NCBI GenBank assembly: GCA_012728415.1
Contig: JAAYFD010000032.1
Location: forward strand, 1 to 64,000
Direction of reading: 5' to 3'
DNA from: Gammaproteobacteria bacterium
GTDB lineage: Bacteria; Pseudomonadota; Gammaproteobacteria; Pseudomonadales; Pseudomonadaceae
Length of the DNA: 64,000 nucleotides
This document shows, in pieces, positions 34,046-38,100 of the stretch (positions are counted from its first letter, which is position 1; the number at the start of each line of letters is the position of its first letter). The translations under genes were made by a program, and so were the position numbers. The notes beneath the pieces are model-generated. The model saw nothing but the letters and a program-made list of their open reading frames with translations. It searched no databases and was not told where the DNA came from.

Positions 34046-34363
34046 TCAGGCCAGCTGCAGTCCGATAATGCCCAAAACAATGCAAATCACGCCGATAATG
34101 CCCTGACGGCCAAGGCGCGCGTTGAACAAAAACCGGTCCAGAGTCACGGTACCCAGCACGCCCAGGCTGCCCCAGGCAGAGTAGGCCACACTCAGCGGCA
34201 CATAGCGCACCACGATGCTAAGCAAAACAAACGCCAGAATAATCATCAGCAAGCCGGTAATGCCCCAGGCCAGCCGCTGAAAGCCATGCGAACGTTTCAG
34301 GCAGTAGTTGGCAGCCAGATCCAGTGACACTGACCCCAACAGCAGGGAAACAGGAAGAATCAT
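34046..34363 (-). CDS. mdtI: Spermidine exporter subunit MdtI (SMR family)
   Basis: A protein of 105 residues with four membrane helices. It aligns with E. coli MdtI by eye: 'SHGFQRLAWG' against its SDGF-R pattern, and 'VPLSVAYSAWGSLGV' against DLSVAYALWGG. Heteromeric SMR pump that exports spermidine with MdtJ. The start overlaps the mdtJ stop (ATGA). The usual SMR Glu in helix 1 is an Asp here ('SLDLAANYCLK'). Confidence 0.82.
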   Translation of the reverse strand: MILPVSLLLGSVSLDLAANYCLKRSHGFQRLAWGITGLLMIILAFVLLSIVVRYVPLSVAYSAWGSLGVLGTVTLDRFLFNARLGRQGIIGVICIVLGIIGLQLA

Positions 34364-34725
34364 GCCTCTACCCTCCCCTGCCCGGCAGGCTGTGTGTCTT
34401 TGTCCGGCCCCTGGTCGAAGGTGACCAGCAACAGGCCAAACATCATCAGGCCGACAGCCAGGAGCTGGCCCGTACTCAGGTGCTCACCGAATAACAGCAT
34501 GCCTGCCATGGCAATCAGGAACAGGCCGGCACCTTCCCAGACCGCATAGGATACGGCCAGCGGGATATGCATCACCGCACGGGAAAAAGCATACATGGAA
34601 AAAGAAATCATCACCACCATGAAGGCATAGCCCAGCAACGGTGAGTGGGTTGCGGCATATTTCATGCCAATGGTACTGGCGACTTCGGCCAAAACAGCCA
34701 GTGCCAGCATGATCCAGTAATACAT
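34360..34725 (-). CDS. mdtJ: Spermidine exporter subunit MdtJ (SMR family)
   Basis: A protein of 121 residues, four helices, the same length as E. coli MdtJ. It has 'YYWIMLALAVLAEVASTIGMKYA' with the proton-coupling Glu of helix 1, and 'LAVSYAVWEGAGLFLIA' with the WEG motif. Exports spermidine with MdtI across the inner membrane. A leader of about 350 bases containing a short upstream ORF precedes it, pointing to polyamine-dependent control of expression. Confidence 0.85.
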   Translation of the reverse strand: MYYWIMLALAVLAEVASTIGMKYAATHSPLLGYAFMVVMISFSMYAFSRAVMHIPLAVSYAVWEGAGLFLIAMAGMLLFGEHLSTGQLLAVGLMMFGLLLVTFDQGPDKDTQPAGQGRVEA

Positions 34726-34976
34726 TATCGCCTCTCTGGCATTGCCGTCTTGGGCAATGCATCAGGGATGCTCTGAAAAAACACTGTGCATGTGCAGGCA
34801 ATCAGCGTGGCTGTGTTTGCTTAAATTCGCTTTCATCGGGCGTGGGCATTGATCCCAGCTGGATGAAAGCACATGCATTTCTATGCAAGAAGAGTGCTTT
34901 TTGAGAGTTTCCTTGTGTCTGAAATTAAGGGTTCGGGCGGGTCTGGTGCCCGGAAACTTGCAGACCAGGAGAGACG

Positions 34977-35054
34977 CTAACGGCCACTACGCCATTGGCT
35001 GTCAAACAGGTGAGGATGGGTGGAGCGGGTAAAAATTGCTTGCGGAGTAAGCAT
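34977..35054 (-). CDS. Upstream ORF (leader peptide) in the mdtJI 5' leader
   Basis: A 25-codon ORF, too short for the ORF track: it starts ATG at 35054 and ends with 'RSTHPHLFDSQWRSGR'. A GAGG Shine-Dalgarno lies four bases before the ATG. The hairpin GCCTCG...CGAGGC just upstream would mask that site. In E. coli the mdtJI leader has a translated uORF, mdtU, needed for spermidine-dependent expression; I recall its existence but not its sequence. The gap from uORF stop to mdtJ is about 250 bases. Confidence 0.55.
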   Translation of the reverse strand: MLTPQAIFTRSTHPHLFDSQWRSGR

Positions 35055-35085
35055 AAAGCCTCGGGGGGCTGCCTATAACGAGGCA

Positions 35086-35091
35086 ATTATA
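35086..35091 (-). promoter_or_regulatory. Candidate -10 element for the mdtJI leader
   Basis: TATAAT on the minus strand, 32 bases before the uORF ATG. No good -35 is seen at 16-18 bp spacing. It sits immediately downstream of the tamB terminator, where a promoter for mdtJI would be expected. Confidence 0.4.
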
Positions 35092-35098
35092 ACACAAC

Positions 35099-35143
35099 CA
35101 ACAAGAGGCCAGACAGATTTTATAAATGTGCCTGGCCCCTTGT
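35099..35143. terminator. Terminator hairpin after tamB
   Basis: AACAAG-AGGCCAGACA and TGTGCCTGGCC-CCTTGTT pair into a long stem around an AT-rich loop, 5 bases beyond the tamB stop. T-content downstream is modest, so efficiency is uncertain. Confidence 0.6.
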
Positions 35144-35147
35144 TCGC

Positions 35148-38100
35148 TTAAAAGCTGCGGCGATAGAACAGGTCCAGCGAGTTGGCCAGTCCGCTGGCGG
35201 CATCCAGGTACAGCCGGCGGGTCAGTTTGTAACGCAGCCCCAGGGTCGTGCCCGGTTCGAAAATGCCGACCCCATACCGCAAGCTCAGGCGTTCGGTGAT
35301 CTGCCCGCTGGCGACTACGCTGGTCTGGTCACCACTGCCTTCGCTTTCCAGCTGGAAGTCCTCAATGCCCAGACTGTCGGCCAGCTTCTGTGTCACCGGC
35401 AGGGCACCCATCAGGCCGAGTCCGATGGCTGCTTCAGCCATCATATTGCCGTCGTCACCGCCACCCAGGGGCTTGCCCAGCAGCAGCCAGGACATGGCCT
35501 GCTCGTCAGCCATTGGCGGCTCGGAGAACACTTCTGCCGCGGGCTGCTCGGCAAGGCCGCTAATACGCAAGCCAGCCGTCACGCTGCCAGTCACCCGGAC
35601 TGCCTCAATATCAATATAGGGCTGGGTCAGTGGCCCGGAAAACACCAGCCGTGCCCGGCGCAAATCGAGCTTCTGGCCATAACCGCGGAAACGGCCATTT
35701 TTAAGCTCCAGCACGCCACGGCCCGACAGGTTGTCGGCCACCAGCAGGTTGCCCTGCACATCTGAAGTCAGGCCAAAGCCGCTGAACTTGAGCCGCTCGC
35801 TACCTACGTCGATAGCAATGTTCATATGAACATCAAGATCCGGCTCTTGCGGCTCCCGCCCGACAACCACCGTATCACTGGAGACACTGACAGAGTCCGG
35901 CGGCAGCTCGGGCACCGTGATGCTGCCCCTGGGCACCGCAACACTGCCGGTCACTGCCAGCCCGGCCGGGTCGTAGGCAATATGCAGGTCAGGCGCAACC
36001 TCCAGGTCGGCGTAGGGCTGAACAAATACCGGCAAATCCTGGCCTTTTAGATGAATGGCGGCGTTCAGCTCGCCGGCCCAGTCAAGGTCACCCGTCAGGC
36101 TGGCAGTGCCTTTGTTGCCGCTGCGCCAGCCTCCTTGCAGACGTGCCTGCTGGCCATCAATACGGACTGTCAGCCCCAGCTGCTCCAGCGTAACTGGCAA
36201 CATGCCGCCGCCGACATGGGCGTCAGCCAACAGGATTTCGCCCTGAATGGCCGGTTGCAGCAAGGTGCCGGCAAGCTCGCCCTGCCCCGTGATACGTCCT
36301 TGCAGGTGCTCGATGTCCGGCAAAAATCCATGCAGAACATGCAAATCAAGCTCTCGCAGGTCAAAGCGCCCGCGCAGTGGCTTGTCCTCCGGACGGGGGT
36401 CTATTCTGCTCTGAATCAGCAGGCGCCCCTGCTCTGCTCCCTGCAGCTCGATACGGGCATCCACTGCAGCCGGCAGCAGGTCTGCCTCCAGCTGCAGTGT
36501 GCGCCAGGCGAACCGCTGCCCTTCCTGCTCCAGTAGCAATGCCCCCTGACCAGCATCCAGCCCGACCTTGCCGTGCAAGCCGGCCTTGTCCTCACGCACC
36601 TGCAGCTGGCCATCAAGCCGGCCATCAATACCCAGCCCGTCCGGCAGCCAGGGCTGCAGACTGGCCAAAACAAACTGCTGTAACCGGTAATCCAGCTGTA
36701 GTTGTGGCAACACCTGCTGCCGGCCATCAGCACACAGGCGGCCATGTGCACTGACCAGACAGTGGGCACCCAGTCGTGCATGCTGCTCGTGCAAATAGTC
36801 CACGTCCATGGCGCGCTCCAGTTGCCAGTCCTGATTTTCGATGGCGAGTTGCAAGTGCTCCAGCTGACCCTGCCAGTGTAGCTGTTCAGCCTGCAGGTTA
36901 CCGCTGAGCCGCAAGCGAGCATCGGCCAACGGCCCGGTCAGGCTGGCTTCGAGCTGGTGCTTGGCCAGGCTGCCGGCGGACTTCAGCTGTAGCTGGCCCA
37001 GCAATTCTTCGCCGCTGGCCAGTCCACGCGCCAACAGGTTCAGCTTGCCGCTATGCCCCTGCTCCAGCTGCGCTGCCAGTTTGAGGCTGCGCACACGCTG
37101 GCCGTCGAATGCCAGATTGCGGCCACTGAGCTGAATATCGGCATCCGGTTGCTCCAGGGTGCCACCCAGCAAAATCTGCCCTTGCAAGGTACCGGTGACC
37201 CCGGGCTGCAGCTGGCCAGGCTCGGCAAGGTCGAGTTTCAGCTCTCCAGACAGCTTTTGCTCCAGCTGCGCCCAGCCATGTATGCGGTTATCACCCAGGC
37301 GCATGTCCAGCACTGGCAGCTGCCAGTGCTCACCCTGGCCAGTCGCCTGCAGCTCTGCCTTGAGCGGCTGCTCACGCAGCCGGCCACTTAGCTCCACATC
37401 GGCTGTCAGCGCCAGGTTCTCTCCCGCCAGACGGCCTTCACTGCGAATATGGCCATCCAGCTGACCGGGCAAGTCAGCAACCCAGTAGCCCGGGTCAATA
37501 TGTTCAACATCCAGTTCGGCAGCCCAGCTGACTGCATCCTGCCAGGCGGCATCCAGTACGCCGCGGATATGCCCCGTGCCTGCCGTCACCTCCAGCGGCT
37601 CAACCCGCACCCGCTCCGCATCACCCTTTAAACGGCTGTCGATAGCAAACTCGCCGGCCGGTCCCCGCAACTTGCCCTGTACGCTACCCTGATAACGGTC
37701 ATCGGCATAGTCAACAACCAGCTGTGCAGTATCAATCTGCACCGGCGCCTCGTCCATGCCGGCAAAATACTGCCAGGGGAACTGTCTGGCATGCACTTCG
37801 GCGCTGGCGCTCAGGCTATCTGCCCAGCCGGCACGCCCCTGGATTTGCACATGTCCGTTATCAGCATGGCTCAGCCGCAGTTGCTCAAGCACCGCACCAG
37901 GCAAACCTGCACTGCCATGGCCGGCGACGACAAAGGTTTGCTGCCTGGCCTGCAGCGCCGAGTCCAGTTGCCAGACAAAACCCTGTTCAAGGCTACCCTT
38001 CGCCGTAAGTCCGACGCTCTCAACCAGCATGTCTGCCGGCAACAGCCCGCCCAGCTCCAGCCGCTGTAACGCCAGCTCCAGGCTCGCCGGCAGGGCCGCC

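Follow-up and report, generated by a model that had tools for sequence, protein, structure and literature searches.

Organization of the mdtJI locus and its leader

The window, by which we mean the whole 64,000-nucleotide stretch of DNA that was analyzed, carries on its minus strand the end of tamB (at 35148), a predicted extended -10 element, a uORF, a 251-nt spacer, mdtJ, and mdtI, in that order. Because the window MdtJ is 93% identical to MdtJ of T. denitrificans X2, we place the genome that holds the window in the genus Thiopseudomonas. The features of the locus are as follows.

35094..35086, minus strand: predicted extended -10 element, TGtTATAAT, read from the sequence and recurring in relatives
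35062..35059, minus strand: ribosome site of the uORF, GAGG, read from the sequence, with pairing probability computed
35054..34977, minus strand: uORF of 25 codons plus stop, encoding the MdtU-type leader peptide MLTPQAIFTRSTHPHLFDSQWRSGR, supported by conservation and a codon-position signal
35003..34977, minus strand: C-terminal motif D-S-Q-W-R-S-G-R-stop, stop-anchored and ungapped in 37 of 37 loci
34982..34969, minus strand: anti-SD CGTTAgCGTCTCTC, comprising the last uORF codon, the stop, and the next 8 nt, which in the predicted fold pairs with GAGAGGCG and the TAATG of mdtJ
34912..34893, minus strand: 5' arm of a conserved stem, GGAaaCTCTcAAAAAGCACT, from paired cells in 11 sequences
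34785..34766, minus strand: 3' arm of that stem, AGTGTTTTTTCAGAGcaTCC, a pattern found once in the genome
34760..34739, minus strand: local hairpin GCATTGCC/GGCAATGC, just 5' of the mdtJ ribosome site
34736..34729, minus strand: region of the mdtJ ribosome site, GAGAGGCG, which the anti-SD covers in the predicted fold
34725..34360, minus strand: mdtJ, SMR exporter subunit, with its ATG at 34725, MdtJ as best NCBIfam family, and a place inside the MdtJ clade
34363..34046, minus strand: mdtI, SMR exporter subunit, overlapping mdtJ by 4 nt, with MdtI as best NCBIfam family, and grouping with E. coli MdtI

The window proteins scored best against the NCBIfam families MdtJ (85.5 bits versus 47.9 for the next family, short of the curated cut-off of 122) and MdtI (73.7 bits versus 49.9, short of the curated cut-off of 103). 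In a tree that included further SMR proteins from related genomes, the MdtJ sequences and E. coli MdtJ formed one clade (support 99/96), and the MdtI sequences clustered with E. coli MdtI except for L050_I and L060_I, for which the wrong reading frame had been taken and which fall outside the MdtI group. These sequence relationships make the two window genes orthologues of mdtJ and mdtI, the spermidine-exporter pair of E. coli. The same genome contains more SMR-type or related matches (G000:C65:8464-8760 and G000:C9:9766-10023), and a search for viral relatives of MdtJ found none. We also observed that MdtJ of Marinospirillum is 73 to 75% identical to that of Thiopseudomonas (L037, L038, and L039), with most other Pseudomonadaceae near 40%; horizontal transfer of the mdtJI operon with its leader between Marinospirillum and Thiopseudomonas is possible on these identities. 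One of these loci, L039, is labelled Pseudomonadaceae and resembles Marinospirillum, and it may come from a misnamed bin.

A preliminary description of this DNA had placed upstream of mdtJ a TATAAT, a uORF with a GAGG ribosome site, and a spacer of about 250 bases that is C-rich at first, and each of these elements was recovered. The TATAAT lies at 35091-35086 (minus strand) as part of the extended -10, the GAGG lies at 35062-35059, the uORF runs from 35054 to 34977 (minus strand) with 25 codons and a stop, and the spacer measures 251 nt to the ATG at 34725, with 38% C and 20% G in its first 60 nt. A TGnTATAAT-like element also precedes the uORF in three other Thiopseudomonas genomes and in Marinospirillum, and the predicted +1 is at about 35080-35078 (minus strand). 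Between tamB and the mdtU promoter, at 35140-35100, there is an imperfect inverted repeat, aaggggccaggcacattt...ctggcctc, and at the same place G002 has a near-perfect one, GGGGTCAGGTACATTT...AAATGTACCTGACCCC; this repeat resembles a tamB terminator or a palindromic element of the dispersed kind. Downstream of mdtI, at 34010-33966, lies a similar GGGGC.../GACCTC stretch.

The uORF encodes a conserved, stop-anchored peptide

We scored loci that had been picked by MdtJ similarity alone, with E. coli added and with L054 omitted because it lies near a contig end, for a uORF that has 12 or more residues and terminates in W[RTHC]xx[LRIT]-stop no more than 350 nt from mdtJ. Such a uORF was present at 37 of 37 MdtJ loci, a count that overstates independence because the pattern was chosen after the sequences had been seen and many of the loci are close relatives, with at least eight separate groups represented. 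Dinucleotide-preserving shuffles of the leaders yielded a motif uORF in 10 of 3,700 cases (0.27%), and none was found within the 450 nt searched upstream of 18 other SMR genes of the EmrE or SugE type in related genomes. A class-wide search with the MdtJ family model returned three weak, distant matches, all of which were without a motif uORF. Thus, the comparison with mdtJ leaders of other species that the preliminary description had suggested found the uORF conserved at every MdtJ orthologue scored.

Counting back from the stop without gaps, the Trp is present in 37/37 peptides and an E or D stands three residues earlier in 34/37. The residue after the Trp is R or T in 34/37 and the final residue is L, R, or I in 36/37 peptides of this stop-anchored alignment, giving the consensus [E/D]xxW[R/T]xx[L/R/I]-stop. 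The C-terminus of E. coli MdtU, read from the genome, is GEQHWRNAL followed by the stop. Over the last 12 codons of the 17 closest loci, variation was 0.11 at codon position 1, 0.12 at position 2, and 0.35 at position 3, and 44% of codon differences were synonymous in frame versus 11% in the other two frames. This roughly threefold variation at position 3 and the synonymous excess in frame imply that selection acts on the uORF peptide, and the codon-position signal is an indirect sign that the uORF is translated. Together, the comparisons indicate that the uORF is real and conserved.

The uORF stop region is predicted to mask the mdtJ ribosome site

The leader in the window has a predicted fold of -121 kcal/mol (z -3.6). 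This fold pairs CGTTA, which overlaps the last Arg codon and the stop codon, with the TAATG at the start of mdtJ. It also pairs the eight post-stop bases, CGTCTCTC, with the ribosome site of mdtJ, GAGAGGCG. In G002, the counterpart of the local hairpin that precedes mdtJ is GCGTTGCC/GGCAACGC. When complements of the mdtJ site were sought by sliding along the leader, none of 285 positions in the window was better than the uORF stop region. The same held for G002 (0/286), G001 (0/173), all five f44 loci (0 in each), and E. coli (0/140); better complements numbered 18 of 233 in G003 and 0 to 18 in seven Pseudomonadaceae loci of g8, g12, and g15.

The paired sequences vary by clade yet still match at the same place, as in L057 (GCTCCACAGC/GCTGTGGAGC), the g8, g12, and g15 loci (CCCTCCC/GGGAGGG), and E. 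coli (GTCCTT..CTTCTGC/GCAGGAG..AAGGAC). The native duplex of the window beat all 66 between-clade swaps, and overall, native pairs beat most swaps. A ribosome that holds the uORF stop codon in the A site would sit over the anti-SD stretch. When the stop region was masked, the mdtJ site became easier to open by computation in all four Thiopseudomonas, by a modest 1.8 to 8.2 kcal/mol, and in E. coli, by 3.1 kcal/mol; these gains are model values. In G002, a ribosome in the middle of the uORF lowered the computed opening cost more than did a ribosome at the stop.

Neither the sister genus g19 nor Marinospirillum has the stop-adjacent anti-SD, although their uORFs carry the same motif, and no clear stop-adjacent pairing was found in g13 and f8. 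Since g19, Marinospirillum, g13, and f8 keep the motif without a clear stop anti-SD, the peptide is more conserved than its readout. In g19 and Marinospirillum (L041-L048, L005, L006, and L037-L039), we observed that the stretch that best complements the mdtJ site, ACCCC, falls for the most part within the uORF, 40 to 54 nt before the uORF end. A rewiring of the readout in these two groups is a possible reading of that sequence.

A conserved stem and a C-rich stretch within the leader

A stem formed by GGAnnCTCTnAAAAAGCnCT with AGTGnTTTTTnAGAGnnTCC is common to Thiopseudomonas, sister genus g19, and Marinospirillum. All 187 of its cells in 11 sequences are paired, and 14 of its 17 pairs are invariant. 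Because the three variable pairs change on one side only, via G-U, with no two-sided change, the stem is supported by conservation and not by covariation. In the modeled leader, this 17-bp stem may fold the long spacer so as to bring the uORF end to the mdtJ start.

Among stretches of 78 nt in the window, about 0.1% reach the excess of C over G seen in the 78 nt from 35071 downwards. From its composition, this C-rich, G-poor part of the leader would be compatible with Rho-dependent premature termination. The leader had no relevant match to an Rfam riboswitch or leader at either the gathering or a relaxed threshold.

A model for control of mdtJI and its alternatives

We consider it likely that an MdtU-type leader-peptide switch controls mdtJI at this locus, where the peptide and the complementarity at its stop are read from the sequence and the arrest, the polyamine signal, and Rho are what we infer. 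At low inducer, ribosomes would complete the uORF and then leave, and the freed anti-SD would block mdtJ translation by pairing with both the start codon and the ribosome site of mdtJ. The untranslated C-rich RNA would probably be exposed to Rho, as in E. coli. At high levels of polyamine, the presumed signal, the nascent C-terminus with [E/D]xxW[R/T]xx[L/R/I] would arrest the ribosome at the uORF stop. The arrested ribosome would extend over the stop and a further 12 nt or so, which is the anti-SD, so that mdtJ would be freed and Rho termination would be reduced.

Control could instead be mainly transcriptional, with the position of ribosomes on the translated uORF gating Rho loading on the C-rich leader and the anti-SD being secondary. 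The Rho-dependent ends and the weaker induction in a rho mutant of E. coli (PMC7815308) speak for such an arrangement, as does the strong C-over-G bias across the uORF and start region. However, the compensated pairing of anti-SD and ribosome site at the stop in several clades would then be needless, and we lean somewhat against this reading while regarding it as possible. We hold it to be quite improbable that the uORF acts by plain translational coupling or reinitiation with neither arrest nor a metabolite. Translation of the uORF alone would open pairing that involves the uORF, according to the computation with a mid-uORF ribosome, but the 251-nt gap is long for coupling, and the stop-anchored motif, the invariant Trp, and the synonymous drift imply that the peptide sequence itself matters.

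Two structures in the leader might suggest other modes of control. The stem, as AAAAAGC.CT/AG.GTTTTTT, could be an intrinsic terminator just before mdtJ that acts by attenuation, given arms that are invariant in Thiopseudomonas, g19, and Marinospirillum and a six-T run on the 3' side. Against this, the pairing extends past the T run (CTCT/AGAG and GGA/TCC), which is needless for a terminator, and the loop is large and variable. A scan for intrinsic terminators gave no match, and the U run lies inside the stem and is not unpaired, so we find attenuation at this stem unlikely. The preliminary description had also named a hairpin of GCCTCG (35084-35079) and CGAGGC (35063-35058) that would mask the uORF ribosome site and, if so, set uORF translation. 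Since its 5' arm begins 2 nt past the -10 box, GCCTCG is mostly upstream of the predicted +1, which the arm overlaps; the named 6-bp form thus needs bases upstream of that position, and it is not conserved in relatives, G001 and Marinospirillum among them. A smaller, 4-bp hairpin, AGCC/GGCU, is predicted to be able to pair with the GG of GAGG, and it is present in G002 and G003 and absent in G001 and Marinospirillum. Even with this shorter pairing reaching the GAGG, control by masking of the uORF ribosome site by the hairpin at 35084-35058 seems very improbable.

Relation to known leader peptides and significance

In E. coli, mdtU (YdgV) is translated, and spermidine induction of mdtJI requires the mdtU start codon (PMC7815308, Adams et al. 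2021). Rho contributes to E. coli mdtJI control, where Rho-dependent ends are seen and induction is weaker in a rho mutant, and pairing of mdtU RNA with the ribosome site of mdtJI was predicted (PMC7815308). The MdtU C-terminus was reported to be conserved in at least 17 genera, and the mechanism was left open, with a SpeFL-like one proposed (PMC7815308). As the preliminary description had suggested, the MdtU uORF arrangement appears to extend to the window, possibly with an arrest-type peptide, judging by the shared stop-anchored motif and the pairing of the stop with the mdtJ site. Like E. coli mdtU, the window uORF lies in the same direction upstream of the orthologous mdtJI pair, ends in a stop-anchored C-terminus (DSQWRSGR-stop here versus EQHWRNAL-stop in E. 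coli), and has at its stop an anti-SD predicted to pair with the mdtJ site. In contrast to E. coli MdtU, the window peptide has 25 residues rather than 33 and a different N-terminus, its distance to mdtJ is 251 nt rather than 106 nt, and its leader has the extra conserved 17-bp stem. The roles of spermidine and Rho known from E. coli are proposed to hold here.

As described in the mdtU study, the ornithine-sensing SpeFL of the speF leader is likewise a polyamine-pathway leader peptide with arrest near its stop codon and Rho involvement, although it governs synthesis and not export (PMC7815308). In the published account of tryptophan-sensing TnaC, a small molecule likewise arrests the ribosome on a leader peptide, although the peptide, ligand, and target genes are different (PMC8429421). 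We found no later paper on the MdtU mechanism in a literature search, which is not proof that there is none; the comparative evidence for stop-anchored arrest with an anti-SD appears stronger than what we found in print. We propose only tentatively, as an idea that we still doubt, that MdtU peptides are a wide class of polyamine-sensing termination-arrest peptides with a stop-anchored [E/D]xxW[R/T]xx[L/R/I] whose readout has been rewired. That readout would be the stop-adjacent anti-SD in Thiopseudomonas, other Pseudomonadaceae, f44, and E. coli versus, in the sister genus and Marinospirillum, an anti-SD inside the uORF together with the invariant 17-bp stem.

These findings would extend the MdtU-type switch to Thiopseudomonas and its relatives, with Pseudomonadales perhaps already among the 17 genera of the E. 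coli study. They also give the E. coli mechanism a sharp, testable form, in which a peptide motif counted from the stop is joined to an anti-SD that lies under the stop-halted ribosome and whose matching sequences are clade specific. In this form, a ribosome paused at the uORF stop could switch the exporter on, as the RNA at the stop is modeled to hide the ribosome site of the exporter.
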